The notes under the pieces are model-generated. The model saw only the letters and a program-made list of their open reading frames with translations. It had not been told where the DNA came from and did not search any database. From Pelomonas sp. Root1444 (GTDB lineage: Bacteria > Pseudomonadota > Gammaproteobacteria > Burkholderiales > Burkholderiaceae_C): 64,000 nt of DNA. Made by a program: the position numbers and the translations under genes. Below, in pieces: positions 12,907 through 49,085 of the stretch. Numbering within the stretch: the stretch's first letter is position 1; every line of letters begins with the position of its first letter. The DNA lies in assembly GCF_001426885.1 (NCBI RefSeq), contig NZ_LMFP01000013.1, positions 360,659 to 424,658 of the forward strand. The letters are read 5' to 3'.

Positions 12907-12943
12907 CAGCCAGTCCGCTGCTTGTCCGTCGCGCTGGAAATCA

Positions 12944-13288: not shown

Positions 13289-13340
13289 GATTGCCTGGGC
13301 GCGGTGAGACCGACTATGCCAACAAGCGGCGGCAAAGAAA

Positions 13341-13358
13341 AAGGGGCCGCGGCCCCTT
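13341..13358 (-). terminator. Intrinsic terminator of ompW (minus strand)
   Basis: AAGGGGCCGCGGCCCCTT is a perfect 18-bp palindrome. On the minus strand it is followed by a T-rich tract (TTTTTCTTT) and lies 20 bp after the ompW stop codon. Confidence 0.75.
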
Positions 13359-13378
13359 GTTGAACCATTGAAGCCCGA

Positions 13379-14056: not shown

Positions 14057-14086
14057 GGGTGGTCTCCGGATGGGGTGCGGCGCGGC

Positions 14087-15250
14087 TTACAGCCAGCCCT
14101 TGGTGGCCAGCGATTTGCCGATCAACTGCTGCGTCAGCTGGTGGCCGTACGGCGTGGGGTGGAAGCCGTCAGAGAAGGCGTAGGTCTTCCACCAGTCGTT
14201 GCCGGTCACGCCGGTGGGTGGCGCGGCGGACAGGGCGGTGGCCGTGCAGGCCGGGAAGTTGTAGGTGGGCAGGCCATCGCCGCCCACGCCGGCGATGGGG
14301 CAGGCCGGCGTCTTCACGTTGGTGATGCCGAACTGCGCCGGCGTGGCGACCTGGTCCTGGAAGGCCTTGTAGAAATCGATCAGCACGACGCGCTCGTCGG
14401 TGCCGACCTTGGCCGCGAGCTGGGTGTTGTAGGCGGTCATCCAGCCCTGGAAGGTGGATTGCGCCGCGGCACGGGCGGTGGCGCCGGCCGTGCCGCCGCC
14501 ATTGGCAGCGGCGATGCTGTCCAGCACCAGCTGGAAACGCGGCGTGTAGGTGACGTCGGGGATGTTGAGCAGCACGACATGGGTGGCGCCCTTGTCCAGC
14601 ACGTTGGCCTTGATGGCCGCGTAGAACTTGTCGGCCAGCGCCGTCATGTAGGTTGCGCCGAGGCCCGCAGTGCCGGCGGCGCCGCCGGCCAGGCCGGTGC
14701 CGATCTGCGTGGGCGTGAGCAGCGTGCCGAGCAGGCCGCGGTAGGCGGCAGCGGCGTCACGCGGGATGTTCAGGTAGACGCCGACAAGGTCGGCCGCATC
14801 GTTGCCGCCGCCGTCGATGATGACGAGGTCGGTCGCCGTGAAGCTGCCGGTGGCCGCAAAGGTCGCCATCTGCGTGCCGATGTTCAACGGGTTGGTCGGC
14901 AGCACGCTGGTGTGCGTGATGCGGCCACCACCGATGGCGTAGTTCGTGCAGCCGGCCGCCGGGTTGACGCCGAAGGTCGTCGCGCCGGTGGCGGCGTAAT
15001 ACGGGCAGAGCGTCTTGCCGTAGTTGGCGGCGACGCGCTCGGCGTAGATCAGGTTGTCGGGGCTCTGGACGGTGAACTTGTAGCCGAAGGTGCCGCTGTC
15101 CTGGATGCTGTCGCCGAAGACCTTGACCGAGGTGATGTTGACCTGCGGCGTCGTGTCCGCAGTTTCACCGCCACCGCCGCAGCCGGCCACGAGCAGGCTG
15201 CCCAACAACGCCGCCGAGGCTGTGGCGATCCGGGTGAGAAAGGGTTTCAT
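14087..15250 (-). CDS. SGNH/GDSL-family esterase lipoprotein
   Basis: 387 residues. The signal peptide carries a lipobox SLLVAGC followed by a Gly-rich spacer, so it is probably anchored in the outer membrane. GDSL block I is VFGDSIQDSG (catalytic Ser), block III contains GGGNDAAD, and block V is SDGFHPTPYGHQ with the catalytic Asp and His. These place it among the GDSL esterases/lipases. A GGAG ribosome-binding site precedes the ATG at 15250; a longer in-frame extension upstream lacks one. Its substrate is unknown. It is transcribed towards ompW. Confidence 0.88.
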   Translation of the reverse strand: MKPFLTRIATASAALLGSLLVAGCGGGGETADTTPQVNITSVKVFGDSIQDSGTFGYKFTVQSPDNLIYAERVAANYGKTLCPYYAATGATTFGVNPAAGCTNYAIGGGRITHTSVLPTNPLNIGTQMATFAATGSFTATDLVIIDGGGNDAADLVGVYLNIPRDAAAAYRGLLGTLLTPTQIGTGLAGGAAGTAGLGATYMTALADKFYAAIKANVLDKGATHVVLLNIPDVTYTPRFQLVLDSIAAANGGGTAGATARAAAQSTFQGWMTAYNTQLAAKVGTDERVVLIDFYKAFQDQVATPAQFGITNVKTPACPIAGVGGDGLPTYNFPACTATALSAAPPTGVTGNDWWKTYAFSDGFHPTPYGHQLTQQLIGKSLATKGWL

Positions 15251-15420
15251 CGTTGTCTCCAGGGCGACACGCGCGGCCGGCGCATCGCAGTCAATTCGGG
15301 ACGGCAACTCTAGCGGTTGCTTTTTAGTACGGTCGTTCGTTTTTCCCCTGAGTGCGCGTAAAGAAAGTCACGCGCAAGGAAGCCGCAAAGTCTGTGGACG
15401 GCGCTGGGATAAGCGGCCAG

Positions 15421-15429
15421 TTATCCACA
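15421..15429 (+). promoter_or_regulatory. Perfect DnaA box
   Basis: TTATCCACA equals the strong DnaA-box consensus. Together with a near-box 119 bp away it suggests DnaA-ATP regulation or titration here. Confidence 0.5.
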
Positions 15430-15539
15430 GCGCGGCGCCGATTTGCGAAGTTGTACCCAAACGCCAGTGCCGCCGTACCGGGCCTGGCGCACAGGCTTGT
15501 GCGCCGGTCAAGCGCTTGCGGCGTAAGGACTTTTTGCCC

Positions 15540-15548
15540 TTGTCCACA
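15540..15548 (+). promoter_or_regulatory. DnaA-box-like site (one mismatch)
   Basis: TTGTCCACA differs at one position from the consensus TTATCCACA. It lies 75 bp before the start of the MazG-like gene. Confidence 0.35.
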
Positions 15549-15622
15549 GCGCAGGGCGCCCTCTACGACCACTACCACCTTGAAATCTTGAACACCATCT
15601 GGAATACAGAAGACACTTCCCC

Positions 15623-15937
15623 ATGGACATTCCGACCCTGCAGCAGCGCCTGCGCCAGTTCGCTGCCGACCGCGACTGGCAGCCCTACCAGACCCCCAAG
15701 AACCTGGCGATGGCCATGACGGTGGAGGCCGCCGAGCTGCTGGAAATCTTCCAGTGGCTGACGCCGGAGCAGTCCCTCGACCTCAGCGATGACCAGCGCC
15801 GCCATCTCGGCGAGGAACTGTCCGATGTGCTGCTGTACCTGGTGCAGATCGCCGACCATGGCGGCGTCGACCTGGATGCGGCCGTCGAGCGCAAGCTGGC
15901 GATGAATGCCATCAAGCATCCGGCCAAGAAGTCTTGA
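15623..15937 (+). CDS. MazG-like nucleotide pyrophosphohydrolase (DCTPP1/RS21-C6 type)
   Basis: 104 residues, all helical. The metal-binding motif EAAELLEIFQW (ExxxE) and the second acidic pair in EELSDVLLYLVQIAD (ExxD) define the all-alpha NTP pyrophosphatase fold. The similarity pattern is closest to small dCTPase (DCTPP1-like) enzymes that sanitise non-canonical dNTPs to dNMP plus pyrophosphate. It is followed 10 bp later by a DnaQ-like exonuclease, so both may serve nucleotide-pool and replication fidelity. DnaA-box-like sites lie upstream. Confidence 0.85.
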   Translation: MDIPTLQQRLRQFAADRDWQPYQTPKNLAMAMTVEAAELLEIFQWLTPEQSLDLSDDQRRHLGEELSDVLLYLVQIADHGGVDLDAAVERKLAMNAIKHPAKKS

Positions 15938-15947
15938 GGAGGGCTGC

Positions 15948-16694
15948 ATGGAAACCATCGCCGTCATCGACTTCGAGACGACCGGCCTCGGGCCCACGAG
16001 CGGCGGGCGGGCCACCGAGATCGCCGCCGTGCTGGTTCGCAACGGCGCGGTGGTCGATGCCTGGAGCAGCCTGATGAACAGCGGCGCCTGGGTGCCGCCC
16101 TACATCCAGGCGCTGACCGGCATCACCAACGAGATGCTGGCGGGCGCACCGGACTCGGCGAGCGTCATGCGCGAACTGGCGCACTTCACTGCCGGCTGCC
16201 CGCTGGTGGCGCATAACGCGGCCTTCGACCGGGGCTTCTGGCAAGCCGAGATGTCTCGTGCCGCGCTCCCGCCCGACCCGGCGCACGAGTTCGCCTGCAC
16301 CGTGCTGCTGTCGCGCCGGCTCTGGCCCGAGGCCAGCAGCCATTCGCTGGGCGAGATGACGCGCTTTCACGACATCCGCTTCAGCGGCCGCGCCCACCGG
16401 GCGATGGCCGACGCGCGCGTGACGGCCGAGCTGCTGCTGAAAGTGCGGGTCGAGATCGCGCAGCGGTTTGCGATGGATCTGGGTGACGTCGAGGTCAACC
16501 ATGCGCTGCTGGCGCAGCTGCAACGCACGCCACTGCGCTGGCTCAGGCGCGGCCTCGTCGAGCATGTGAAAGCGCACCGGGCGACGGCTGAGGTACAGGA
16601 AAAATTTCTGTCAAGAGCTGACGCCGCAGGCTTGGACAAGGACAATCGCGCCCTTTCGTCCCCGTGCCATTGCCCAAGAGTTCCATGTCCGTGA
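15948..16694 (+). CDS. DnaQ-like 3'-5' exonuclease (DEDDh)
   Basis: 248 residues. ExoI motif VIDFETTGLG, ExoII in LVAHNAAFDRGF and ExoIII HRAMADARVTAELL (the H of DEDDh followed by the last Asp) give a complete active site. The family includes the DNA polymerase III epsilon subunit and stand-alone proofreading-type exonucleases. I start it at the ATG after a strong GAGGAGG ribosome-binding site, 10 bp downstream of the MazG-like gene. The C-terminal 60 residues are not part of the nuclease core. Its end overlaps the start of the following GNAT gene by 10 bp. Confidence 0.85.
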   Translation: METIAVIDFETTGLGPTSGGRATEIAAVLVRNGAVVDAWSSLMNSGAWVPPYIQALTGITNEMLAGAPDSASVMRELAHFTAGCPLVAHNAAFDRGFWQAEMSRAALPPDPAHEFACTVLLSRRLWPEASSHSLGEMTRFHDIRFSGRAHRAMADARVTAELLLKVRVEIAQRFAMDLGDVEVNHALLAQLQRTPLRWLRRGLVEHVKAHRATAEVQEKFLSRADAAGLDKDNRALSSPCHCPRVPCP

Positions 16695-17203
16695 TCCAGG
16701 TTCGCCCCGCCACCCTGCGCGATGCCAAGGCCATCGCCGAGATCCATGTCGCTGCCAGCCAGGATGCCTACAAGGCCTTGCTGCCGGCCGCCGCCCTGGA
16801 TGCGATGTCGGTGCAGAAGCGCCAGGCCTTCTGGCGCGAGGCCATCGACCTCTGCGAGCCGCAAGTCATCGTCGCCCATCTGGACAACAAGATCATGGGC
16901 TTCGCCGGCTTCGACCGTTCACGCGACAAGGGCACGCCGGCCACGACCGGCGAGGTCTGGGCGATGTTTGCCGACCCGGTGCACTGGGACAAGGGCGTGG
17001 GCCTGGCGCTGTGGGATGCCACGCGCGACGGCCTGCAGGAAGAAGGCTGCACCAAGGCCACGCTGTGGTGCTACCTGCGCAACGAACGCGCCCTGCGCTT
17101 CTTCGAGCTGGCCGGCTTCAAGCGCGAGCTGGGCAGCGCCCGCACGACGGAAGTCGGCGGCGCACGGGTCGAAGAGATCCGCCTGCACCGCTCGTTGGTC
17201 TGA
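16685..17203 (+). CDS. GNAT-family N-acetyltransferase
   Basis: 172 residues. The N-terminal IQVRPATLRDAKAIAEIHVAA, the central GEVWAMFADPVHWDKGVGLALWDATRD (acetyl-CoA loop, a variant of Q/RxxGxG/A) and the C-terminal CYLRNERALRFFELAGFKRE are classical GNAT signatures. The acceptor is unknown. The ATG before SVIQVRP has an AAGAG ribosome-binding site; a start 21 bp upstream is possible. A strong bidirectional terminator follows. Confidence 0.82.
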   Translation: MSVIQVRPATLRDAKAIAEIHVAASQDAYKALLPAAALDAMSVQKRQAFWREAIDLCEPQVIVAHLDNKIMGFAGFDRSRDKGTPATTGEVWAMFADPVHWDKGVGLALWDATRDGLQEEGCTKATLWCYLRNERALRFFELAGFKRELGSARTTEVGGARVEEIRLHRSLV

Positions 17204-17223
17204 ACGACCCAGCACGAAGGAAC

Positions 17224-17246
17224 AAAGCGCCCCTCGGGGCGCTTTT
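17224..17246. terminator. Bidirectional intrinsic terminator
   Basis: AAAGCGCCCC-TC-GGGGCGCTTTT gives a 10-bp perfect stem flanked by A and T tracts. It serves the GNAT gene on the plus strand and the HNH-like gene on the minus strand. Confidence 0.85.
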
Positions 17247-17269
17247 CGATGGGGTCAGCGGCGCAGGCC

Positions 17270-18313
17270 TCAAGCCGCGTAGCCGCCTGTGTTCAATGCC
17301 CAGCCGTCGGTGGCGTCGTCATGACGTTGCACATGCACGGGGCTGAGCTTCTTGGCGGCAGCACGTTCCACGAGGTTCTCGGCCTGCGCGGGCGTCAGCT
17401 GCAGCGCGAAGCGCGTCCAGCGCTTCTGCACCAGCGGCAGGGCCCAGGCGTCCTCTAGCGCCCAACGGATGTGATGCGGCTCCTGCAGTTCGTTGGCGGC
17501 CAGAACGCGCGGCGCCAGGGCCAGCACGAAACGGTTGAAGTCGGTTCGCAGTGGGTCCGTCGGCAGCAGGGCTTCCAGGCGGCTCAGCCGGGCACTCCAG
17601 CCGGGCGTGGCAAGCTGGCGCGTGACCAGCGCCTGCAGCGCCTGGATGGGGTTGAAGAGGCGCAGCCGGTTTGGCGGCAGCACGTGTAGCGGGATCTGCG
17701 CAGCGTCCTCATGGCTCAACGGCGTGACGAAGCTGGCCAGCACCGCCAGGCGCCGCCATTCGGCCTCCGCCAGGCCACCGATGCGGGTGATGGGCCCAGA
17801 GGCGCAGCTGCCGGCCATTCCGTTCAACGCGGCATGGTCGCGTGAACCCTTGGCCTGGTTGGCGCGGCGGCTCATGACGGCAAGGTTGCCGGCGGCATAG
17901 CCGGCGTCGTCACGGACGCGGTCGATGGAGCGGTTGGTGTCGTCGAGCGGTTCGCGCGAAATGGGGCAATGGCTGGTATCGAGCTGAGCCAGGTGATGTG
18001 GCGTCAGCTGGATGTCTTCGAAGCTGCGGCCGCGGGCCCAGGCGTGGGTGCGCAGGCTCAGCCATTGTTCGACCTGCGGGCTGGCGGGCGCGCGCACCGG
18101 GCGGCCACGGCTGGCCAGCCAGCCGCGCTGCAGCGGCGACTGCGGGTAGAGGTGGCCGATGGGCGGCGTCACGCCGTGCAGCGCGTAGTCACGGCCCAGG
18201 GCCAGGCCGGTGCGCTCGTGGGCGCTGACGCTGGCGGGCGCGTCGATCAGTCCCAGGTCGAACTGGACGAGGGCGGGGCGGGCATTGGCTTGGGCATTGA
18301 GGACGGCTTGCAT
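17270..18313 (-). CDS. HNH-like motif protein of unknown function
   Basis: 347 residues. Most of the protein is unfamiliar, but residues about 116-155 contain CPISREPL, then SIDRVRDDAGYAAGNLAVMS and RRANQAKG. This matches the core of phage-type HNH endonucleases (CP.t..., Sid.vdp..GY..gN..v.s...N..K), including the Asp, Asn and Asn positions (D131, N143, N152). A second zinc-ligand Cys pair is not evident. AGGAG precedes the ATG. It is divergent from a WYL regulator across a 120-bp gap with an inverted repeat. Its function could be DNA cleavage or merely an HNH-derived fold. Confidence 0.6.
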   Translation of the reverse strand: MQAVLNAQANARPALVQFDLGLIDAPASVSAHERTGLALGRDYALHGVTPPIGHLYPQSPLQRGWLASRGRPVRAPASPQVEQWLSLRTHAWARGRSFEDIQLTPHHLAQLDTSHCPISREPLDDTNRSIDRVRDDAGYAAGNLAVMSRRANQAKGSRDHAALNGMAGSCASGPITRIGGLAEAEWRRLAVLASFVTPLSHEDAAQIPLHVLPPNRLRLFNPIQALQALVTRQLATPGWSARLSRLEALLPTDPLRTDFNRFVLALAPRVLAANELQEPHHIRWALEDAWALPLVQKRWTRFALQLTPAQAENLVERAAAKKLSPVHVQRHDDATDGWALNTGGYAA

Positions 18314-35439: not shown

Positions 35440-36333
35440 TCAGCCGCCGCGCAGCTTGTCGAGGATGCCGGACAGCGCGTCCAGCGAGTCGAAGTGGATG
35501 GCCAGCTCGCCGCTCTGGCCGCCGCGCTTGCTGCGCTTCTTCACGCGCACCTCGACGCTCGCGCCGAGGGCGTCGGCCAGCTCCTCCTCCAGCCGCAGCA
35601 CGTCGCGGCTCTTGTCGCCCTTCACACGCAGCAGCGGTGTCTGGCGGGCGGCGCCCTGCTGTTTGGCGACCAGCTTCTCGGCCTCGCGCACGCTGAGTTT
35701 CTTGGCTGCGATCTCGGTGGCCGTCGTGATCTGCGTGGCGCCGTCCAGCGGCAGCAGCGCGCGCGCATGGCCCATGTCGAGGTCGCCGGCCATCAGCATG
35801 TTCTGCACCGGCGCCGAAAGGTTCAACAGCCGCAGCAGGTTCGATGCGGCGCTGCGCGAACGACCGACGGCCTGGGCCGCCTGCTCGTGCGTCAGCCCGA
35901 ACTCGTCGGTCAGGCGCTTGAGGCCTTGCGCTTCTTCCAGCGGGTTGAGGTCCTCGCGCTGGATGTTCTCGATCAGCGCCATCGCGGCCGCCGATTCGTC
36001 GGGCACCGCCTTGACCAGCACCGGCACCTCGCGCAGACCGGCAAGCTTTGCGGCACGGAAGCGCCGTTCGCCGGCAATGATCTCGTAATTCACACCGCCG
36101 TTCGGCGTGATCGGGCGCACGAGGATGGGCTGCATGATGCCCTGCGCCTTGATGCTCTCGGCCAGCTCGTACAGCGAGCCCTCGTCCATGCGCGTGCGCG
36201 GCTGGTATTTGCCGGCCTGCAGCTGTTCGAGCTTGAGGGTGGAGGGCAAGTCGGTGGCGGGTGCCTCACTGACTTTGGGGCCCAGCAGGGCTTCCAGGCC
36301 GAGGCCGAGGCCTTTGGGTTTCTTCGTTGCCAT
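35440..36333 (-). CDS. parB: Chromosome-partitioning protein ParB
   Basis: 297 residues. The N-terminus MATKKPKGLGLGLEALLG is the ParA-contact segment. The ParB/CTPase domain has Y/F-QPR (KYQPRTRM), GERRFRA (88-94) and ENIQREDLNPLEEA (122-135). The HTH LTHEQAAQAVGRSRSAASNLLRL (about 147-169) binds parS, and the C-terminal dimer domain is basic. It is the last gene of its unit, 16 bp after a small hydrolase gene. parA is 11 kb away instead of adjacent, while parS-like palindromes are at 48.5-49.6 kb. Confidence 0.96.
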   Translation of the reverse strand: MATKKPKGLGLGLEALLGPKVSEAPATDLPSTLKLEQLQAGKYQPRTRMDEGSLYELAESIKAQGIMQPILVRPITPNGGVNYEIIAGERRFRAAKLAGLREVPVLVKAVPDESAAAMALIENIQREDLNPLEEAQGLKRLTDEFGLTHEQAAQAVGRSRSAASNLLRLLNLSAPVQNMLMAGDLDMGHARALLPLDGATQITTATEIAAKKLSVREAEKLVAKQQGAARQTPLLRVKGDKSRDVLRLEEELADALGASVEVRVKKRSKRGGQSGELAIHFDSLDALSGILDKLRGG

Positions 36334-36925: not shown

Positions 36926-37873
36926 ATGACTTATCGCGTGTTTGTGGACGGCCAGGAAGGCACGACCGGTCTGCGCATTCACGAGTACCTCGCGGCGCGG
37001 GCCGACATCGAGGTGCTGAAGATCGACGCCGACAAGCGCAAGGACCCGGCCGAGCGCTCGCGCCTGCTGAATGCCGCCGACGTGGCCTTCCTGTGCCTGC
37101 CCGATGCGGCGTCGCGCGAGGCGGCGTTCATGATCAACAACCCGCACACCTGCCTCATCGACGCCAGCACCGCGCACCGCACGGCGCCGGGCTGGGTGTT
37201 CGGCCTGCCGGAGCTGGCGCGCGGCCAGCGCGGCGCCATCCAGGCCAGCAAGCGCATCTCCAACCCCGGCTGCCACTCCAGCGCCTTCATCCTGGGCGTG
37301 CGCCCGCTGGTGGACGCCGGCCTGCTGCCGGCCGATGCGGCGGTGAGCGCCACCTCCATCACCGGCTACTCGGGTGGCGGCAAATCCATGATCGCCGAGT
37401 ACGAACAGCAGCCGCTGCCCGCCCACCTCCAGGCCCCGCGGCCCTACGGCCTGGGGCTCAAGCACAAGCACCTGCCGGAGATGATGGCCCACACCGGCCT
37501 GGCGAACCCGCCGGTGTTCATGCCCATCGTGAGCAGCTTCTACAAGGGCCTGGCCGTCAGCGTGCCGCTGCAGCTGAGCCAGTTCAAGCCCGGCACGACG
37601 CCCGAGCAGGTGCAGGCCGCGCTGGCCGCGCACTACGAGGGCGAACGCTTCATCAGCGTGAAGCCGCTGCGCGACGCGGCCGCGCTGGAGGCCGGCTTCT
37701 TCGACGTGCAGGCCTGCAACGACACCAACCGCGTGGACATCTTCGTGTTCGCTTCTGACACACAGGTGCTGCTCATCACGCGCCTGGACAACCTCGGCAA
37801 GGGCGCCAGCGGCGCGGCCGTGCAGAGCATGAACGTGCACCTGGGCGTCGAGGAAAGCCTCGGCCTGATCTGA
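36926..37873 (+). CDS. argC: N-acetyl-gamma-glutamyl-phosphate reductase, short (type 2) form
   Basis: 315 residues. ArgC makes N-acetylglutamate semialdehyde in arginine biosynthesis. The N-terminus VFVDGQEGTTGLRIHEYL is the Rossmann start of the short-type enzyme (about 310 residues). The catalytic Cys is C116 in SNPGCHSSAF, and GLKHKHLPEM holds the substrate histidines. TTGGAG precedes the ATG. It is divergent from the hydrolase-parB unit across 45 bp. The other arg genes are not here, as is common in this order. Confidence 0.95.
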   Translation: MTYRVFVDGQEGTTGLRIHEYLAARADIEVLKIDADKRKDPAERSRLLNAADVAFLCLPDAASREAAFMINNPHTCLIDASTAHRTAPGWVFGLPELARGQRGAIQASKRISNPGCHSSAFILGVRPLVDAGLLPADAAVSATSITGYSGGGKSMIAEYEQQPLPAHLQAPRPYGLGLKHKHLPEMMAHTGLANPPVFMPIVSSFYKGLAVSVPLQLSQFKPGTTPEQVQAALAAHYEGERFISVKPLRDAAALEAGFFDVQACNDTNRVDIFVFASDTQVLLITRLDNLGKGASGAAVQSMNVHLGVEESLGLI

Positions 37874-37946
37874 GCGTCAAACGTGGCGTTGCGCATCGGC
37901 GCAGCGTCGCGATACTGCGGGCCGTCTTCATGAGCAAGGAGGGCCC

Positions 37947-40403
37947 GTGAGCACATCCGGCAGAGCGCCGAAAGGGACGCCGAGGAAGAACGGCAAGCCG
38001 CAGCCCGAGCACGAGCTGCTGCTGCCCGGCGTGCACATCGCCAGCGCGGGCAATGCGCTCGGCGTGCCGCTGGCCGCGGTGGACGACCGCTCGCGCCAGA
38101 GCATGGCCCAGCAGGCCTTGCGCTGGACCTATGTGCTGCGTTCCCGCCAGCGCTGGGTGCGCGAGGCCAAGGTGCGCGAGCAGCACCAGCTCGAGGCCGC
38201 CGAGACGCTGAAGGCGCTGGGCCTGAGCACGGCGCAGGTGCGCGCGCTGAGCGAGGCGTCGACGCTGGTGGTGCGCGTGCCTTACCGGCACGAGGCCATC
38301 CTGTGGGAGGGGCGCATCTTCCCGTGGGAGTACGTGCTGGCGGCGGCCACGCGCGAGCAGCGCCGCGCCGCCGTGGGCAAGCCGCGGCCGTTGACCATCA
38401 TCCGCGAGCTGCAGGTGCAGCACGAGGTGGAGGGGCGCTGGCAGCCCATGCCGCGCGACGCGGTGGTCTTTCCGTCGTGGAAGGACTTGCGCGTGCTGTT
38501 CGTCAACGCGCTGCCGCTGGAGCTGTGCGAGCGCTGGACGGTGGACGCCGAGCTGAAGAACCTCGCCGCGGCGCTGCCCAAGGAGGTGCCGGCGCCGCGG
38601 GTGCTGAACTACCCGAGCCTCGCGGAGCTGAGTGCCGAGCTGAAGGCGCGGCCGCCGCACCTGCTGCACTTCGCCGGCATGGACAGCCACCAGGGCCTGC
38701 GCGAGCTGGGCACGCTGGTGGGCAAGTCGGCGCTGGTGGAGGCGCCCGAGTCTGACGCGGCCGATGCGCCCTGCCAGGTTCAGCCGATCGACGAGCTGCT
38801 GGCCGACTCGCGCCGCGTGCTGGACGGCCTGCTGCTGCGCGGCGCCGAGGGCTATCCGCGCCTGGTGCATGCGCAGGCGCTGGCGACGGCGGTGGCCGAG
38901 GCGGTGGGCAAGACACCGCCCTACCTGACGACGCTGAACGTGTGGAACAGCGCGGCGCGGCTGGCGCCGATGCTGATCACCGAGGGCGCGTCGCGGGCGG
39001 CGCTGGGCTTCCAGGACGCCTTCGACGACTCGCTGGCGGAGTACGCGCTGACGCAGCTGCTGCGCCACCTGTTCGCGGGCGGGTTCGACCTGCCGGCGGC
39101 CTTCACCAGCGTCTGGGAAGAGGTGCGGGCGCTGCCGGAATCGGTGGATGCGACCGGCGTGACGCTGTGGCTGGACGGCCCGGTGTTCGTCGATCCGACC
39201 GTGCGCGCGGCCCACGAGGCCCGGGCCCGCGGGCTGGCGATGGCCAAGGCCGATGTCGCGGCGCCGGAGTCGGCATCGGCGGTGGTGCGCTGCGAGGTCG
39301 AGCCCTTCCCGGAGCTGAACTACGCGGTGCTGCACAACGCCCAGCCGCTGTTCAAGCGCTTCGTGCTGAGTTGCGACAACCCCGGCCGCGCCGCGCCGCT
39401 GGACGTGGAGGTGGCCGTGCACATGGGCGCCGAGGTGGCGCGCTTCCAGCGCCGCGTGCGGCTGCGCCAGGTGCGCGAGAAGCTCACCGACAAGATCCAC
39501 GTGCCGTTGACGGCGGAGGTCGCGCGCAGCGTGCACGAGGCGATCAACACCAGCCTCGTCGTCAGCGTGCGCCAGGACGACGAGCTGCTGTACCACGACA
39601 GCCATCGCCTGCGCCTGCTGCCGGTGGATCAGTGGCGCGACAACCGTCGCGACGGCCGTTGGCTGCCGTCCTTCGTGCTGCCGCGCGACCCGGCGGTGCT
39701 GGACGCCGTGTCCATGGCGCGCCGCTACAACCGCGTGCTGCGCGACGACCCGACGGCAGGCTTCGACGGCTACCAGTGCGTGCGCGACGACGCCATCGAC
39801 GAGGAAGCGCTGCGCGGCGTGGACCGGCAGGTGGAGGCCTTGTGGGCGACGCTGCTGCACGACTGGCGGCTGGGCTACATCAACCCACCGCCCAGCTACA
39901 GCGGCGAGCTGGACTCGCAGCGGCTGCGCGTGCCGTCCATGGTGCTGGCCGAGCGTGCCGGCACCTGCATCGACCTGGCGCTGCTGTTCGCGGCCTGCCT
40001 GGAGCTGGTGGACATCTACCCGGTCGTGTTTTTGCTCGAAGGCCATGCGCTGCCGGGCTGGTGGCGGCACCGCAGCTTCCAGGAGGAGTACCAGCGCATG
40101 GGCGCGGCCAACTACAGCGAGGTGGTGCAGGCCGACGCCGGCGGCAGCTCGGCCGCGAATGCGCAGGTGGTGAGCTGGCATGCCGGCAAGGCCAGCTGGG
40201 CGGAGGTGCGGCGCTGGGTGCGCGAGCGCAAGCTGGTGCCCATCGAGACGGTGCGCTTGACGGAGCACTGCGGCTTCATCGAGGCCATCGAGGCGGGCGT
40301 GCAGGCGTTGGCCGAGCGCAGCGACTACGACTCGATGCTGGACATCGTCACCGCCCGCCAGGCCCAGGTCACGCCGCTGCCGCTGCTCAAGGAGCGGTCA
40401 TGA
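37947..40403 (+). CDS. Degenerate CHAT-like / Ig-like / transglutaminase-like protein
   Basis: 818 residues, no signal peptide or membrane helix. Residues about 150-390 look like a CHAT (caspase-like) domain: HLLHFAGMDSHQG (His 241) and LTTLNVWNSAARLAPMLITEGASRAALGFQDAFDDS, where the usual Cys of LNxCxS is absent. Residues about 445-565 resemble the Ig-like module, and about 570-790 the transglutaminase-like module, that begin large DUF4011/AAA_11 helicases: LGYINPPPSYSG, RAGTCIDLALLFAACLE (Cys 674), FLLEGHALPGWW (His 700) and VPIETVRLTE (Glu 767). No helicase follows. It overlaps the next gene by ATGA. These are remembered pattern matches, not search results. It may belong to a defence or conflict system. 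Confidence 0.6.
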   Translation: MSTSGRAPKGTPRKNGKPQPEHELLLPGVHIASAGNALGVPLAAVDDRSRQSMAQQALRWTYVLRSRQRWVREAKVREQHQLEAAETLKALGLSTAQVRALSEASTLVVRVPYRHEAILWEGRIFPWEYVLAAATREQRRAAVGKPRPLTIIRELQVQHEVEGRWQPMPRDAVVFPSWKDLRVLFVNALPLELCERWTVDAELKNLAAALPKEVPAPRVLNYPSLAELSAELKARPPHLLHFAGMDSHQGLRELGTLVGKSALVEAPESDAADAPCQVQPIDELLADSRRVLDGLLLRGAEGYPRLVHAQALATAVAEAVGKTPPYLTTLNVWNSAARLAPMLITEGASRAALGFQDAFDDSLAEYALTQLLRHLFAGGFDLPAAFTSVWEEVRALPESVDATGVTLWLDGPVFVDPTVRAAHEARARGLAMAKADVAAPESASAVVRCEVEPFPELNYAVLHNAQPLFKRFVLSCDNPGRAAPLDVEVAVHMGAEVARFQRRVRLRQVREKLTDKIHVPLTAEVARSVHEAINTSLVVSVRQDDELLYHDSHRLRLLPVDQWRDNRRDGRWLPSFVLPRDPAVLDAVSMARRYNRVLRDDPTAGFDGYQCVRDDAIDEEALRGVDRQVEALWATLLHDWRLGYINPPPSYSGELDSQRLRVPSMVLAERAGTCIDLALLFAACLELVDIYPVVFLLEGHALPGWWRHRSFQEEYQRMGAANYSEVVQADAGGSSAANAQVVSWHAGKASWAEVRRWVRERKLVPIETVRLTEHCGFIEAIEAGVQALAERSDYDSMLDIVTARQAQVTPLPLLKERS

Positions 40404-41746
40404 GCCACCCGCTATGGCGCGCGGCGCGCGAGCAGCTCAGTGAACCGGCGCCGGACCGCGGCGAGGAGGCCCGTGCTTCCATCCAGCAGCGCCGCCGCCG
40501 CGGCTACGAGGCCGCGCGCGACGATGGCCGCGCCGCCGTGCGGCTGGTGCGCGACGACGGGCTGCTGCGCTGGGTCTACGAGCCGCCGGCACGGGAGCGC
40601 GGCGGCGGCGCGCGGCGCAGCTGGCGCGCCGTGGGGCTGGACCCGCGCGAGACGGTCGAGCGCATCGCCTTCCCCGCGCTGGGCGTCAATGCGGTCACCG
40701 CAGGCCTGCAGAAGCTGGACGTACGGCTGAACCCGGTGCTCGGCGGCATGCAGCCCACGGACGGGCTGCGCCGCTGGGACGGGACGCACTGGGCGCCGCT
40801 GCCGGCCGGCTTCCTGAGCGGGCTGGCGGGGCGCGTGCTGGTGCTGGTGCACGGCACCTTCAGTGCCAGCGCCATGTATGCCCGGGAGTTCGCCGCGACG
40901 GCCGACGGCGAGGCGCTGTTCGAACGCCTGACGCGCGCGGGCGATCGTTATGCCGCGGTGCTGGCCTTCGACCACCCGACGCTCAGCGTCGCGCCCTGGC
41001 TGAACGCGCTGGCGCTTCGCGACGCGCTGGCCGCCTGCACCGCGGAGCTGGACTTCGTCGGCCACAGCCGCGGCGGCCTCGTCATCGCCTGGCTGCTGCG
41101 GCTGGCGCCGGCGTTGCCGGTGCGCCAGGCGCTGTTCGTCGGCTCGCCGCTGGCCGGCACGTCACTCGCCGCGCCGGACAAGATCCGCCAGGCGCTGGAC
41201 ACGCTGGCCAGCATCGCCGACGTGCTGGCCGAGGGCGCCGTGCGCACGGGCCGGTTGATGCCGGGCCTGGAGCCGCTGTCGCTTGGGGTGGCGGGCCTGG
41301 CCTGCGTGTTGGGCAAGGTGCTGCAGCTGGGCTCGCGCCTGCCGCTGGCCGACGCGGCCGTGGGCCTGGTGCCGGGCCTGCTGGCCCAGGGGCGCGTGGC
41401 CAACAACCTGGAGCTGGCGCAGCTGTGGCCGCTGCAGGGGCCGGCGGCCGGCGTGGACGTGCGGGCCATCGGCGGCAGCTTCCAGCCCAGCGAAGTGCAC
41501 GAGCCGCTGTGGAAGCTGTGGAAGCGCGTCACGAACCTCAAAGGCCAGGCGATGTACCACGGCGCCGACCTGATCTTCGACCAGCCCAACGACCTGGTCG
41601 TCGACAGCGCCGCGATGAACCGGCTGGGCAGCCAGCTGCTGGTGGCGCCGCACTGGGAGGACCTGGGCCCCAGCGCCGAGACGCACCACACCAACTACTT
41701 CCAGGATGCGCGGGTGCTGAACTGGCTGGACCGGCGCCTGCGCTGA
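40400..41746 (+). CDS. PGAP1/lipase-like alpha/beta hydrolase partner of the CHAT-like protein
   Basis: 448 residues. An N-terminal alpha-rich region (about 1-140) precedes the hydrolase core: VLVLVHGTFS (oxyanion loop, about 147-155), nucleophile DFVGHSRGGLV (Ser 223), acid in QPNDLVVDS (Asp 398 or 402) and a His in ETHHTNYF (429/430). The G-H-S-R-G-G elbow and VGSPLAGTSLA are like PGAP1/lecithin-acyltransferase-type lipases. No signal peptide is present, so it acts in the cytoplasm. It overlaps the upstream gene by 4 bp, which indicates translational coupling and a shared function: a predicted lipase effector with a protease-like partner. Confidence 0.7.
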   Translation: MSHPLWRAAREQLSEPAPDRGEEARASIQQRRRRGYEAARDDGRAAVRLVRDDGLLRWVYEPPARERGGGARRSWRAVGLDPRETVERIAFPALGVNAVTAGLQKLDVRLNPVLGGMQPTDGLRRWDGTHWAPLPAGFLSGLAGRVLVLVHGTFSASAMYAREFAATADGEALFERLTRAGDRYAAVLAFDHPTLSVAPWLNALALRDALAACTAELDFVGHSRGGLVIAWLLRLAPALPVRQALFVGSPLAGTSLAAPDKIRQALDTLASIADVLAEGAVRTGRLMPGLEPLSLGVAGLACVLGKVLQLGSRLPLADAAVGLVPGLLAQGRVANNLELAQLWPLQGPAAGVDVRAIGGSFQPSEVHEPLWKLWKRVTNLKGQAMYHGADLIFDQPNDLVVDSAAMNRLGSQLLVAPHWEDLGPSAETHHTNYFQDARVLNWLDRRLR

Positions 41747-44167: not shown

Positions 44168-45181
44168 CTATTGCGCCACCAGCTCCACGCGGCGGTTGCG
44201 AGCCCGCCCGGCCTCCTCGCCGTTGCCGGCCACCGGCGCCAGGCTGGCCAGGCCCTTGGGCACCAGGCGCTTGGCATCGACCTTGTAGGGCGCCGCAGCC
44301 AGCGCCGCGACGACGGCCTGGGCGCGGGCGAGGCTCAACTTCTCGTTGGCCTCGAAGCCGCCGACGTTGTCGGTGTGGCCGACGATCCAGGCCTTCAGCG
44401 CGGGCTGGCTCTTCAGCAGCTCGGCCATCGCCTCCAGCTGGGCCTTGGACTCGGGCTTGAGCTCGGTCTTGCCGGTGTCGAAGAACAGACCCGTCAGTGT
44501 GACGCGGCCCTCGGCCGCCAGGCCGGCCTGCATCGCGGCCGGGTCGACGCTGACCTGGCCGGTCTCCATGGCCTTGGGTTCGACGACTTCGAGGTAGGTG
44601 GCGACGAGGCCGGTGGTTGCGTTGGCGGCCACCGAGTTGTAGAGCAGCACGGTGGCTTCCTGCCCCGGCTTGCCGAGCGTGCCGACGAGCATGCGGCCGT
44701 CCTCGGCGGACAGCGCCGACGTCAGGCTGTAGCGGCTGCCGGTGGGCGTGTCGACGTCGCCCTTGGCCCAGGTCATGCCCTTGTTGGGCTCGCTGGTCTT
44801 CCACCACGCGAAGTAGAGGTCGGCGCAGTTGCGCTCGCACGAGAAGCGCTTCTTGAAGCCGGCGGCGTTGAGCGCCTGCTCGTAGTTGCGCCACACCTCC
44901 AGCGCGGACTTGCCGCGCGGCGCGATGTAGACCGTGCGCGTGACCTTGCCTTCGAGGTTGAGCAGCTCCGTGAACTGGCGCTTGTCCGCCTTGGACAGCT
45001 CGGCGCTGGCGGGCACGACGGCGGCGTCCCAACTGGAGACGCGCTGGCCGGCTAGCCAGGAGCCGGCGAAGCGCTTGATGAGCGGGTGGTCGGCGGCGCC
45101 GGGCAGGTCGGAGACGGGCTTGTCGGCGGCGAAGCTGGCGGTGGCGGCCAGCAGCGTGGCGATGGCGGCGATGAGCTTCAT
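44168..45181 (-). CDS. OmpA-family protein with DUF4892-like N-terminus (copy 1)
   Basis: 337 residues with signal peptide MKLIAAIATLLAATASFA. Residues about 20-215 are a DUF4892-like domain (PGAADHPLIKRFAGSWL, VEPKAMETGQV). The C-terminal OmpA/MotB peptidoglycan-binding domain (about 225-337) contains LFFDTGKTELKPESKAQL, IVGHTDNVGGFEANEKLSLARAQAVV and NRRVEL. It probably tethers the envelope to the cell wall. A clear paralogue lies 24 bp upstream in the same direction, so the two arose by tandem duplication. Confidence 0.85.
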   Translation of the reverse strand: MKLIAAIATLLAATASFAADKPVSDLPGAADHPLIKRFAGSWLAGQRVSSWDAAVVPASAELSKADKRQFTELLNLEGKVTRTVYIAPRGKSALEVWRNYEQALNAAGFKKRFSCERNCADLYFAWWKTSEPNKGMTWAKGDVDTPTGSRYSLTSALSAEDGRMLVGTLGKPGQEATVLLYNSVAANATTGLVATYLEVVEPKAMETGQVSVDPAAMQAGLAAEGRVTLTGLFFDTGKTELKPESKAQLEAMAELLKSQPALKAWIVGHTDNVGGFEANEKLSLARAQAVVAALAAAPYKVDAKRLVPKGLASLAPVAGNGEEAGRARNRRVELVAQ

Positions 45182-45205
45182 GATTCGGTTGGATAGGGCG
45201 TTAGG

Positions 45206-46234
45206 TTATTGCAGCACCATCTCGACGCGGCGGTTCTTCGCGCGGCCGTCTTCGCTGCCGTTGGCGGCCACGGGCGCGAAGTTGGCGACGCCGCGCGCCT
45301 GCAGCCGGTTGGCCGCGATGCCGCGCTGCGCCAGCGCCGCCACCACCGACTGGGCGCGGCCCTGGCTCAGCGCGAGGTTGGCGTCGATGCTGCCGACGTT
45401 GTCGGTGTGGCCGACGATGAGCACCTTCAGCGCCGGCTGGGCCTTCAGCACGGCGGCCATCTGGTCCAGCTGCTTGCCGCTTTCGGGCTTGATGTCGGTT
45501 TTGCCGGTGTCGAAGAGCAGGCCGTACAGCGCCACCTTGCCCTCGGCCTGCAGGCCCTGGCCGATGGCCTTGGCATCGACCGTGACCTGGCCGGTGGGCA
45601 TGGCCTTGGGCTCGACGATCTCGATGTAGGTCGCGGCACGGTTCGTGTGCTCGTTCTCGGCCATGGACGTGAACAGCAGCAGGTTCAGCGTGCGGCCGCC
45701 GCTGGTGAGGGTGCCGACCGTCATGCGGGCCTGGTCGTAGCTGAGCGCCATCGGCAGGGCCCAGGTGCTGCCGCGGTGCGCACTGTCCGCGGCGGGCAGG
45801 TCGCCCTCGGCCCAGCGCATGCCCTTGCCGCGCTCGTAGCCGTCGATGGCGAAGTAGGCCTTGGTGCAGCCTTGGGCTTCGCTCTCGCAGCCCCAGGTGG
45901 GCTTGAAGCCGGCGGCAGTGAGCGCCTGCTGGTAGTTGCGGAACACCTCCAGCGGGCTCTTGCCCAGCGGCGCGAGGTAATACAGGCGCGTGACCTTGCC
46001 CTCGACGTTGACCGGGCGGTTGAACTTGTCTTCGGTCTTCGAGACGCCACTGGCGTCGGGGAAGCTGCGCTGCTCCCACTCCTGCTGCGCGTAGCCGACA
46101 AGCAGGCTGCCGGTGAAGCGCTTGAGGACGGGATGGTCGGCGCTACCCGGGACGTCGGCCTTCGGGGCGTCGGCTTGCGCGGTGGCAACGGTCAGGGAGG
46201 CCAGCAGGGCGAGGGCGGTGCGGGTCAGCGTCAT
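45206..46234 (-). CDS. OmpA-family protein with DUF4892-like N-terminus (copy 2)
   Basis: 342 residues with signal peptide MTLTRTALALLASLTVATAQA. The domain order is the same as its neighbour: DUF4892-like (PGSADHPVLKRFTGSLLVGYAQQEWEQ, VEPKAMPTGQV), then OmpA C-terminal (LLFDTGKTDIKPESGKQL, IVGHTDNVGSIDANLALSQGRAQSVV, NRRVEM). The ATG at 46234 gives the signal peptide; the longer upstream frame runs into the GNAT gene's leader and is not coding. It is the upstream gene of the tandem pair. Confidence 0.85.
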   Translation of the reverse strand: MTLTRTALALLASLTVATAQADAPKADVPGSADHPVLKRFTGSLLVGYAQQEWEQRSFPDASGVSKTEDKFNRPVNVEGKVTRLYYLAPLGKSPLEVFRNYQQALTAAGFKPTWGCESEAQGCTKAYFAIDGYERGKGMRWAEGDLPAADSAHRGSTWALPMALSYDQARMTVGTLTSGGRTLNLLLFTSMAENEHTNRAATYIEIVEPKAMPTGQVTVDAKAIGQGLQAEGKVALYGLLFDTGKTDIKPESGKQLDQMAAVLKAQPALKVLIVGHTDNVGSIDANLALSQGRAQSVVAALAQRGIAANRLQARGVANFAPVAANGSEDGRAKNRRVEMVLQ

Positions 46235-46337
46235 GTGGGCGGCGTCGAATGAGAGGCACGATGTTGACGCAGCCACCGCGCCGGCCCGCGTCGCGGCCGA
46301 CCTGCAAACGTGGGAGCCGAAAGCGGTGACGACGCCT

Positions 46338-47084
46338 TCAGGCCAGCTCGGTCTCGGGGCTGCGGTAGTGGTAGCGGTAGGCGAAGACGAAGCCCAGGCG
46401 CGCGTAGAGCCGCTGGGCGACGCTGTTGTCGCTGCCCACCTGCAGGTAGGCCTGGCGCGCGCCCTGGGCGTGGGCCAGCGCGAGCAGCGCGCGGCACAGG
46501 CGCTCGGCATGGCCGTGGCGCGGCACGGCCGAGAAGACGTCGTAGAGGCCCACGATGTCGTCGTCGACAACCATCTGGCCACAGGCCAGCAGCGCGCCGC
46601 CGGCGTCGTTCAGCGCGAAGCCCTGGTAGGTGACCGGGGCGTTAGCAATGCGCTCCGCATGGGCGGCGATGGCCGTGCTGGAGGAGCCGCGCAAGGCGCC
46701 GACGACGGCGGCGTAGGCGGGCGCATCGAGGGCCTGGAGGGCAGCGGGTGCGGGCTCGGGCGTGAGCCGGTCCAGCACCATCACATCGGCCGCGTCGAAC
46801 ACGCCCCAGCCCTTGGCGGCGAGGCGCGCGTCCAGGTCGGCCGGCTGGCTCCACGGCGTCACGCGGATGGCCAGCGGCAGGCCGGCGGCGTCGTAGGCCT
46901 GCTGGCAGCGGGCGAGCAGGTCGTCCAGCGGCAGCGTGCCCTGGTGCAGCGCGTTGATGCAGCGCGAGCGCTTGGCCTTGCCGGGCGACAGCCGGATCAG
47001 CCAGCCGTCGATGTCGGCCTGCTGGGGCGGGGCGCTGGCGTCGAGGCCGGCCATTTCGGCGCGCAGGGCAAGGGCGTCAAGCAT
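46338..47084 (-). CDS. GNAT-family acetyltransferase (two-half type)
   Basis: 248 residues. The N-terminal half (about 1-115) is a degenerate acetyltransferase-like region (DGWLIRLSPGKAKRSRCINAL) as in the YjdJ/DUF4081-like acetyltransferases. The C-terminal half has the true GNAT core: GLYDVFSAVPRHGHAERLCRALLALAHAQGARQAYLQVGSDNSVAQRLYARLGFVFAYRYHYR. Its ATG lies inside the end of the upstream GNAT gene (8-bp overlap), so they are coupled. Substrate unknown. Confidence 0.82.
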   Translation of the reverse strand: MLDALALRAEMAGLDASAPPQQADIDGWLIRLSPGKAKRSRCINALHQGTLPLDDLLARCQQAYDAAGLPLAIRVTPWSQPADLDARLAAKGWGVFDAADVMVLDRLTPEPAPAALQALDAPAYAAVVGALRGSSSTAIAAHAERIANAPVTYQGFALNDAGGALLACGQMVVDDDIVGLYDVFSAVPRHGHAERLCRALLALAHAQGARQAYLQVGSDNSVAQRLYARLGFVFAYRYHYRSPETELA

Positions 47085-47616
47085 TGGCGTCGAGCAGGGT
47101 GGAAGGATTGCGCCAGATGCAGCGCCATTCGGGCAGGCAGACACCACCGAAAGGCGGCGTCGTGCCGGGGTCGATGAACTCGGCGCCCATGCGCGCATAG
47201 AAGCGCTTGGCGGGCTCGTTCTGGTCCAGCACCCACAGGTGCAGCGGCAGGGTGTGCGCCGGCCCCAGCTCGCGGACGACGGCCTGCAGCAGCCGGCGGC
47301 CGATGCCACCGCCCTTCAGCTCTGGGTGGACGTGCAGGTTGTCGACCAGCGTGCCGCAGACGGGGTCGTGGCCAGGCAGCACGTAGGCGAAGCCGATCAG
47401 CCGGCCCGAAGCGTCTTCGGCGACGATGCCGAAGGCGGACGTGACCGGCGAGGTTTGCAGGCGCTCACGCCAGACGGCCCGGCGGTCGGCGAAGACGTCG
47501 TGGTCGAGGAAGCTGTCCGGCACGATGCCGCGGTAGGCGCTGCGCCAGCTGGTGGCGTGCAGGTCGGCGACTGCGTCGGCATCGCTGTCTTGCATCGGCC
47601 TCAGCGTCACGCTCAT
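47077..47616 (-). CDS. GNAT-family N-acetyltransferase
   Basis: 179 residues. [37 protein letters not shown], the acetyl-CoA loop [23 protein letters not shown] and [18 protein letters not shown] are textbook GNAT motifs. It begins 4 bp within the end of parA (ATGA), so it is translationally coupled to parA and may share its promoter. In an intact par locus parB would be expected near this position. Confidence 0.87.
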
Positions 47617-48386
47617 CGCATCGTCTCGATCCGCCGCACCATCTCCTTGGCGAAGTCGACGAAGGCCACCGCGCCCTTGGAGCTGGGGTCGAACACCACA
47701 CCGGGCAGGCCGTAGCTCGGCGCCTCGGCCAGGCGGACGTTGCGCGGGATGACCGTGTCGAAGACCTTGTTGCCGAAGTGGGCCTTGAGCTGGTCACTGA
47801 CCTGCTGCTGCAGCGTGATGCGCGGGTCGAACATGACGCGCAGCAGGCCGATGATCTGCAGGTCAGGGTTCAGGTTGGCGTGGATCTGCTTGATGGTGTT
47901 GACCAGGTCGGTCAGGCCTTCCAGCGCGAAGTACTCGCACTGCATCGGCACGATGACGCCATGGGCGCAGCACAGGCCGTTCAGCGTCAACATCGACAGC
48001 GACGGCGGGCAGTCGATGAGGATGAAGTCGTAGTCCTTGCCGGCGTCTGCCAGCGCCGCCTTCAGCCGCGCCTCGCGGCGCTCCAGTGCGACCAGGTCCA
48101 CCTCCGCGCCGGCCAATTCGCGGTTGGCACCCAGGACGTCATAGCCGGCTTTCTCGGCGCGGGCCTTGGCCTCGGGCAGCGAGGCGGATTCCAGCAGCAC
48201 GTCGTAGACGGTCAACTCCAGCTTGCGCTTGTCGATGCCCGAGCCCATCGTCGCGTTGCCTTGCGGGTCCAGGTCGACGACGAGGACGCGCTGGCCGATC
48301 TGCGCCAGGCCGGCGGCGAGGTTGACGGTGGTGGTGGTCTTGCCGACGCCGCCCTTCTGGTTGGCGATGCAGAAAATCTTGGCCAT
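47613..48386 (-). CDS. parA: Chromosome-partitioning ATPase ParA (Soj)
   Basis: 257 residues. It is a deviant-Walker-A ATPase: KGGVGKTTT (11-19, with both signature lysines K11 and K16), [14 protein letters not shown] (Walker A') and [16 protein letters not shown] (Walker B). The length is that of chromosomal Soj-type proteins without an N-terminal HTH. It drives origin segregation together with ParB on parS. It is the third gene of mnmG-rsmG-parA, 76 bp after rsmG, and overlaps a GNAT gene at its end. parB is 11 kb away. Confidence 0.96.
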
Positions 48387-48462
48387 GGGTTCCAGTTTTC
48401 GACTACCGGCATCGTACCGGCGAGAGGGCGGGTCGACCCTCGGGCGCGACCCGTGAGTCAGC

Positions 48463-49085
48463 TCAGCGAGGGCGCATCCACACGATGCAGCGCTGGGCAT
48501 CCAGGCCCGGGACGGCCAGTTGTTCCACGTGAAACACGTCCACGTCGGCAGGCAGCGCGGCCATCTCGTCGGCGGGGTGCTGCCCCTTCATGGCCATCCA
48601 CACCGCACCCTCGGCGAGGTGCTGGCGAGTCAGGCGGGTGAAGTCGACCAGGGACGCGAAGGCGCGCGAGGTGATGACACCGAACGGCTCGGTCTCCAGC
48701 GCTTCGACGCGGCTGTGCACGCCGTGCAGGTTGGGCAGCTTCAGCTCGGCCGCGACCTGCTGGATGAACGTCGCCTTCTTGGCGACGGCATCCACGCAGC
48801 TGACGTCGGTCTCAGGGAAGCAGATCGCAATGACGACGCCCGGCAGCCCACCGCCCGCACCAACGTCCATCAATCGGGCCGGCGCGCCGTGGCGCTTCAG
48901 GGGCGCGACGACGGAGAGGCTGTCCACCAGGTGGTGGCTCAGCATCTGCGCCGGGTCACGCACGGCGGTCAGGTTGTAGACCTTGTTCCACTTCTGCAGC
49001 AGGGCCAGGTAGGCCAGCAGCTGGTCGAGTTGGGAGTCGTTGAGTTCGAGGCCGAGTTCGGTGGCGGCCGCTTGGAGGGCGTCCC

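Follow-up and report, generated by a model that had tools for sequence, protein, structure and literature searches.

The window analysed here, which is the whole 64,000-nucleotide stretch of Pelomonas sp. Root1444 DNA, carries two adjoining genes on the plus strand, referred to below as A and B. Gene A was found to encode a protein of 818 amino acids (aa) with an N-terminal region, a caspase-like CHAT fold without its catalytic residues (pseudo-CHAT), an immunoglobulin-like (Ig-like) module and a transglutaminase-like (TG) domain, and gene B encodes an alpha/beta-hydrolase of 448 aa. An earlier sequence-only reading of the window had taken the two genes to be an ATGA-coupled unit, and this was confirmed, with the start of B (40400-41746) overlapping the stop of A (37947-40403) as ATGA and with AAGGAG 5' of B. 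The start codon of A is GTG, with AAGGAGGG just 5' of it. The features of the pair are given below, with the basis of each in brackets where one applies.

37936..37943, plus strand: Shine-Dalgarno-like AAGGAGGG preceding gene A (sequence)
37947..40403, plus strand: gene A, 818 aa; N-terminal region, pseudo-CHAT, Ig-like module, TG domain
38064..38471, plus strand: A residues 40-175, N-terminal region ahead of the CHAT core (identity, model)
38472..39221, plus strand: A residues 176-425, predicted CHAT fold without catalytic residues (alignment, Foldseek, profile, hhalign)
38667..38684, plus strand: A residues 241-246, HFAGMD, at the CHAT HFxGHG site (alignment)
38934..38951, plus strand: A residues 330-335, LNVWNS, at the CHAT LNACES site, Cys position 333 being Trp (alignment)
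39279..39632, plus strand: A residues 445-562, Ig-like module, common to DUF4011-type helicases (NCBIfam, model, Foldseek)
39633..40400, plus strand: A residues 563-818, TG domain (NCBIfam, identity, hhalign)
39966..39968, plus strand: C674, predicted nucleophile of A (62/62 rows)
40044..40046, plus strand: H700 of A (62/62 rows)
40245..40247, plus strand: E767, predicted acid of A (62/62 rows)
40389..40394, plus strand: Shine-Dalgarno-like AAGGAG for gene B, within the end of gene A (sequence)
40400..41746, plus strand: gene B, 448 aa, DUF7379 alpha/beta-hydrolase (Pfam, model, Foldseek)
41066..41068, plus strand: S223, nucleophile in GHSRGG of B (63/63 rows)
41174..41383, plus strand: B residues 259-328, helical, lid-like insert (model, family alignment)
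41591..41593, plus strand: D398, predicted acid of B (62/62 rows with a letter)
41687..41689, plus strand: H430 of B (62/62 rows with a letter)

Domains of protein A and of its hydrolase partner

Homologues of A were retrieved at 72 loci in one scan of genome contigs by means of two motifs immediately preceding the core of the TG domain, so the sample favours copies of A with a conserved TG region. The alignment of A has 62 rows (the window and 61 of the 72 loci) and excludes ten split, truncated or partial loci, the absentees including L090, L102, L131-L136, L137, L138 and L141. The closest homologue among the matches listed is that of Pelomonas sp. Root405, at 91%, which places the genome of the window in the Roseateles/Pelomonas group. 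Mean pairwise identity was found to be 34% in the N-terminal region, 33% in the CHAT-like region, 36% in the Ig-like module, 57% in residues 563-720 and 35% in residues 721-818, so that the TG core (563-720) is the slowest-evolving part of A. The AlphaFold model of A has a predicted local distance difference test score (pLDDT) of 85.4 and a predicted template modelling score (pTM) of 0.86.

Residues C674, H700 and E767, which follow the Cys-His-acid order of a transglutaminase-like triad, are invariant in all 62 rows, as the sequence-only reading of an intact triad would have it, and they are kept in each of three loci found through B alone (G178, G154 and G527). That reading had also likened the Ig-TG pair to the N-terminus of DUF4011-type helicases. 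This was borne out by the NCBIfam family antiphage_ProA (NF058533), of which positions 1-240 of 1903 match A residues 458-710 at E 7.3e-46 (A scoring 156.3 bits against a cut-off of 1500), and by the retention of the Cys, His and Glu motifs in all eight DUF4011-type proteins read. Foldseek matched A with transglutaminase 2 only at E 0.07-0.08. By alignment and model, the TG-like domain of A is a putative thiol-enzyme domain with a predicted triad that never varies in the aligned rows.

The profile of the A family (62 homologues) has one significant match among PDB sequences, the SAVED-CHAT protease 8TL0 (E 1.4e-6), and chains of 8TL0 were the sole five Foldseek matches of the A model below E 0.001 (E 3.3e-7 to 1.1e-6). 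The structural match is local, because the template modelling scores (TM-scores) are low, at 0.20-0.21 by query and 0.33-0.36 by target. Csx29, Craspase, caspase-4/-11 and separase appeared at E 0.005-0.12, amid unrelated entries, the anti-sigma factor DdvA being one. The CHAT region of A was also aligned by hhalign with the active CHAT domains of three fusion proteins, with a probability of 96.2% in local and 97.7% in global mode. The CHAT-like region proposed from the sequence was thus recovered by profile, by hhalign and by structure prediction, in which a caspase-like fold was found with the 8TL0 chains on top.

The catalytic Cys of this domain had been read as lost, and so it is: position 333 is Trp in the window protein and Cys in 5 of 62 rows. 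The loss is not confined to the Cys, since the catalytic His position (245) is occupied by F (20 rows), V (19), M (11), C (6), I (4) or L (2), and by His in none of the 62 rows. Pfam gave nothing significant in A, CHAT being absent even at E up to 10; judged against CHAT (PF12770), A has the fold but neither the His-Cys dyad nor a score at the gathering threshold. From the alignments and the model, A is predicted to hold a CHAT fold stripped of its catalytic residues.

The CHAT-like part of A also weakly matches proteins of ~1035 aa at L209:1747-4860 and L210:5270-8377, in which both the catalytic His and the catalytic Cys of CHAT seem to be missing (HLVGP, SGRD) and in which a P-loop and repeats come next. 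These proteins are perhaps another dead-CHAT family. Sensor domains fused to A in L100 and L113 were considered and rejected, the >1000 open codons upstream in the A frame being a likely GC-rich reading of other genes.

Protein B scores 87.9 bits against DUF7379 (PF24096; cut-off 33), and its AlphaFold model has a pLDDT of 83.4 and a pTM of 0.78, with a linker of low confidence near residues 69-80. The Ser-Asp-His core ascribed to B from the sequence is present throughout the family, S223 being found in 63 of 63 rows and D398 and H430 in every one of the 62 rows that have a letter at these positions, and no signal peptide was evident in B when judged by eye only. Bacterial lipases were the top Foldseek matches (E 1e-6, TM about 0.35/0.51), and residues 288-330 are hydrophobic family-wide (mean Kyte-Doolittle 1.14). 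By sequence and model, B is a lipase-like hydrolase that has an intact predicted triad and is probably cytoplasmic. A full-text literature search found no paper on DUF7379. A partial second copy of the C-terminal segment of B was seen after B at L056:6993-7109 and L081:13494-13739 (Pelomonas sp. Root1237).

Relatives of B were found fused to CHAT domains. Eleven long B-like proteins were opened: L065 (1141 aa), L067, L068, L212-L216 (1825-2040 aa), L208 (1345 aa), L211 (Ruegeria pomeroyi WP_051420469.1, 966 aa) and L066 (770 aa). Ten have CHAT in the same chain, identified by Pfam in eight, by annotation and motif in L211 and by motif alone in L216 (nearly identical to L214), and the His and Cys motifs are intact in all ten. 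The CHAT profile of A matches three of the 11 (best L065, E 1.5e-12), and the TG profile of A matches none at E 10. The L208 protein is a close relative of B (E 2.2e-58), and its genome is that of L130, an A locus with no adjoining B. An AAA-type ATPase gene was seen near the fusion at L065:1-534 (by eye) and L211:8362-11322 (by annotation). At L066:5839-8151 (minus strand), DUF7379 is joined to an N-terminal part that has, in place of CHAT, a motif resembling HExxE and looking like that of a metallopeptidase.

Linkage, genomic site and distribution

A strong B match (at least 100 bits) was found in 62 of the 72 A loci; in 61 of them B follows A on the same strand by no more than 200 bases, and in one (L123) it lies upstream. 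Among 399 genomes of the order there are four near-full-length B matches, all four with A adjoining. Distances between A proteins were correlated with those between B proteins (r 0.776, 31 thinned of 55 shared loci), a value reached in 0 of 2000 permutations. Judging from these sequences, A-B is a co-inherited two-gene unit, with its members side by side and diverging in step. In Bradyrhizobium, A is split into a dead-CHAT gene and an Ig-TG gene in six of ten loci, with an ATG/TGA overlap in all six, and is unsplit in L116, L119, L121 and L122; by sequence, the predicted modules of A are separable.

Where strong B is missing, L118 and L141 have a B fragment only, L090 and L124 lie at or near a contig end, and the remaining six of the 72 loci (L091, L097, L107, L130, L131 and L140) have A without B. 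Near A at these loci lie a metallopeptidase with weak likeness to M36 (L091), a protein with weak likeness to caspases (L097) and another alpha/beta-hydrolase, weakly matched and separated from A by a HEAT-like gene (L107), all three below the Pfam cut-off; a CHAT protein that weakly matches nSTAND and whose CHAT passes the Pfam cut-off (L131); and, after A in L140 (Verrucomicrobiaceae; 12470-17431), WXG100 and FtsK/SpoIIIE-type genes forming a type VII secretion-like set. No partner was evident near A in L130. As evidence, partner swapping at the six loci is weak, since the L131 CHAT alone stands above the Pfam cut-off. A second, different alpha/beta-hydrolase was seen near A in three related gammaproteobacterial loci (L103:7659-8609, L107:8346-9783 and L106). 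In Verrucomicrobia, similar genes (a likeness by eye) lie just upstream of A in L131:1041-2447 and L140:8402-9769, the latter with no Pfam match.

Within the window, the pair lies between parts of the par locus, as the sequence-only reading had placed it, and adjoins a semialdehyde dehydrogenase gene, which we take to be argC. The flanking genes, all assigned by Pfam, are as follows.

35440-36333, minus strand: ParB
about 36926-37873, plus strand: ArgC-like gene, semialdehyde dehydrogenase
47613-48500, minus strand: ParA-type ATPase

In 13 loci of the Roseateles clade, the flank with ParB, the hydrolase and ArgC is preserved, and A comes after ArgC at a distance of no more than about 2 kb. Compared with the window, identity there is 44-91% for A and 46-87% for B vs 86-93% for ArgC and 80-89% for the small hydrolase. 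In L079, L081, L082 and L086, A is at 44-56% vs 91-92% for ArgC, B being at 72-74% in two and at 46% in the remaining two. Full-length A was found in 14 of 20 genomes of the genus, its own included. Five of the six genus-mates without A have a matching ArgC, the far side being visible in four of these; L151-L153 have only a few ordinary genes ahead of parA, and L150 (6297-9767, genus-mate G541) has, besides other genes, one for a protein of weak SLATT/DUF4231 likeness and, after it, one for a DUF4062 protein. The argC-parA interval may serve as a spot for accessory genes. At 44168-46582 (minus strand) of the window lies a tandem pair of OmpA-domain proteins, of which the second has DUF4892, and several related loci have matches between B and parA. 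A T2SSB (GspB-like) gene lies beside an AAA_22 ATPase at 41757 to about 44120 (minus strand), and the two presumably represent a GspA/ExeA-GspB pair.

Beyond the genus, full-length A is present in six of 150 family genomes (once split over two contigs), and nine more have a match within residues 415-711 only. A search of the whole phylum with the A profile, which scored two candidates per genome and is of limited sensitivity, matched 40 of 398 genomes; the A of the window is the sole full-length one among the matches listed, the others being the Ig-TG or the CHAT part. Judged by their record titles, the A loci belong to Pseudomonadota, Planctomycetota, Acidobacteriota, Gemmatimonadota, Myxococcota and Verrucomicrobiota. 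On a FastTree tree, two cross-phylum nestings have 100% local support, L098 (Planctomycetota) with L110 (Lysobacteraceae) and L123 (Gemmatimonadota) with L121/L122 (Bradyrhizobium); given the long branches and the metagenome bins, single transfers are uncertain. The phylum labels cluster, changing nine times over the tree (least possible five, shuffled mean 15.4), which speaks against much transfer.

Possible function of the pair and alternatives

The survey of neighbourhoods that had been suggested as a check found that the pair is not universally beside housekeeping genes, its neighbours being ordinary but varied. The neighbour proteins were taken from a crude open reading frame caller and include some antisense artefacts. 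For 115 of the 240 near neighbours, 21 PADLOC families were obtained at E 1e-5, with one member each, and for 115 of the 140 far neighbours 42 families, the best 25 of the 42 having three members each and being mostly kinase-type. No recurrent defence family was seen, either in the clusters of 53 of the 72 loci inspected by eye or in the best 25 of 103 Pfam families from 115 of the 240 near neighbours. Viral contigs gave no relative of A in a scan for A only that depended on any one of three motifs from the TG region; in plasmids and phages, no copy was found that reached 80% coverage of A. The match in a phage record covers residues 447-812 only, 74 plasmid records match A (those among the matches listed being mostly annotated as DUF3320/DUF4011 proteins), and the one plasmid match to B is the R. 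pomeroyi fusion. A search of open-licence literature found no paper on the A-B pair.

The interpretation given in the sequence-only reading is supported in part, namely for the dead CHAT, the two triads, the two-gene unit and the DUF4011 link; the defence or conflict module and the attack on membrane lipids that it put forward are candidate roles. A defence role of the pair is plausible. A conflict role is favoured because relatives of B are fused to active CHAT domains, because A has other partners in a few loci and is spread over several phyla, and because identity at the par site is lower than that of the flanking genes. It is further favoured by the published rule that caspases of the VMAP class go with alpha/beta-hydrolases (PMC7159879), and this precedent makes a conflict role the leading guess.

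Our tentative reading, to which we would give somewhat less than even confidence, is that A-B is an effector unit in which the pseudo-CHAT acts as a scaffold or sensor, the TG-like domain as the catalyst and B as the hydrolase effector. The pseudo-CHAT would no longer cut and may instead bind a trigger, B or a substrate, and the Ig-like module would connect it to the TG-like protease. A trigger, for which phage, envelope damage or another signal would be candidates, might then allow B, or a protein restraining B, to be processed by the TG-like domain, and the freed B could hydrolyse a lipid or other ester and halt the cell through growth arrest or death. Such a unit might have arisen from an older hydrolase-CHAT pair in which the protease half was replaced, CHAT being retained as scaffold and catalysis shifted to the TG-like domain. 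Its most specific form, a protease swap in an immune effector whereby CHAT became the sensor or scaffold and a DUF4011-type TG-like protease took over catalysis in a two-gene, lipid-attacking self-destruct switch, seems rather unlikely as a whole.

Several results weigh against the effector reading. The TG homology is weak outside the triad, with hhalign against 16 Transglut_core proteins giving P 1.3e-4 and a probability of 53% (0.7 for two control regions), and a Pfam search of A gave no transglutaminase family match. The lipase likeness of B is limited to its fold and catalytic core, and the L066 protein is DUF7379 alone by Pfam, with no CHAT. Strong B is missing at ten of the 72 A loci, and correlated A and B distances are also expected from the shared descent of adjacent genes. 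PADLOC-DB 2.0.0 gave no family for A or B, and PADLOC matches are no more frequent in near than in far neighbours of the pair. Furthermore, the pair is common in the genus (14/20) and occupies a single chromosomal site in those loci of the genus that were seen, as for a stable accessory function.

Such a non-immune function, with A as a regulated protease or scaffold and B as an esterase or lipase in lipid or envelope homeostasis or stress turnover, is a serious alternative that we nevertheless hold to be unlikely. It accords with ordinary, non-recurrent neighbours that are not enriched in defence genes, with the constant par-side flank of the 13 Roseateles-clade loci, with the failure of the scans made to find a viral or full-length plasmid copy and with the clustering of phylum labels. 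It sits less easily with the supported cross-phylum nestings, with the divergence of A beside a conserved ArgC-like gene in four of these 13 loci (B also being at 72-74% in two of the four), with the six genus genomes from which A is missing, with the other partners in a few loci and with a hydrolase-CHAT architecture that is common to conflict systems. The tight coupling of the genes, with A first, and their correlated divergence could also fit a toxin-antitoxin-like control in which B is a toxic hydrolase and A mainly its neutraliser. The dead CHAT, perhaps a module for binding, would then hold B, and the TG-like domain would control how stable A is. We consider this improbable, as A is large and has a fully conserved catalytic triad, the CHAT partner in the fused relatives keeps its catalytic residues, and A stands without an adjoining B in six of 72 loci. 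The transglutaminase-like fold family includes both protease and transferase-type activities, and the same TG-like domain is also an N-terminal module of DUF4011-type helicases. Both points would suit a TG-like domain that modifies or ligates proteins (by transamidation, deamidation or amidase action) and so marks a target for B or the cell, which we judge to be slightly more doubtful still.

If the effector reading is correct, the pair would offer a route by which a pseudo-protease arises and persists in a bacterial effector system, with catalysis passed from one thiol-protease fold to another. It would also link the Ig-TG module of DUF4011-type helicases (antiphage_ProA) with a small pair of genes that lends itself much better to assays, and it would give DUF7379 a role open to testing, that of the hydrolase arm in caspase-like systems.

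Comparison with known systems

In the MoxR-vWA ternary conflict systems, the caspase-superfamily domains of VMAP proteins are reported always to occur with a neighbouring alpha/beta-hydrolase gene, TG-like peptidases to be rare there, and ~70% of the caspases that take the vWA effector position, as distinct from the VMAP position, to be inactive (PMC7159879). A-B resembles these systems in having a caspase-superfamily domain with an adjoining alpha/beta-hydrolase gene (61/72 loci) and differs from them in that A holds a dead caspase-like and an intact TG-like domain in one protein. No MoxR or vWA gene was found among the ten window genes around A-B, and none was seen to recur elsewhere, in the clusters of 53 of the 72 loci read by eye or among the best 25 of 103 Pfam families from 115 of the 240 near neighbours.

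The DUF4011/DUF3320-type helicases (antiphage_ProA) share with A the same Ig-like and TG-like N-terminal module and its Cys-His-Glu motifs, whereas A ends at 818 aa without a helicase part and falls below the family cut-off. The nearest solved structures to the CHAT region of A are the SAVED-CHAT protease 8TL0, which forms filaments, and Craspase/Csx29; these are active CHAT proteases in CRISPR-linked pathways; A, in contrast, lacks both CHAT catalytic residues, and a SAVED domain was absent in the Pfam and NCBIfam scans made. The DUF7379-CHAT fusions (L065, L208 and R. pomeroyi) combine the hydrolase family of B and the CHAT fold of A in one polypeptide, with the CHAT motifs intact, whereas the CHAT of the window is dead, lies on a separate gene and is joined to Ig-TG. 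By analogy with these systems, A-B may be regarded as a caspase/hydrolase conflict pair, in which the pairing of a hydrolase with CHAT is known and the union of a dead CHAT with predicted TG-like catalysis in one protein would be new.

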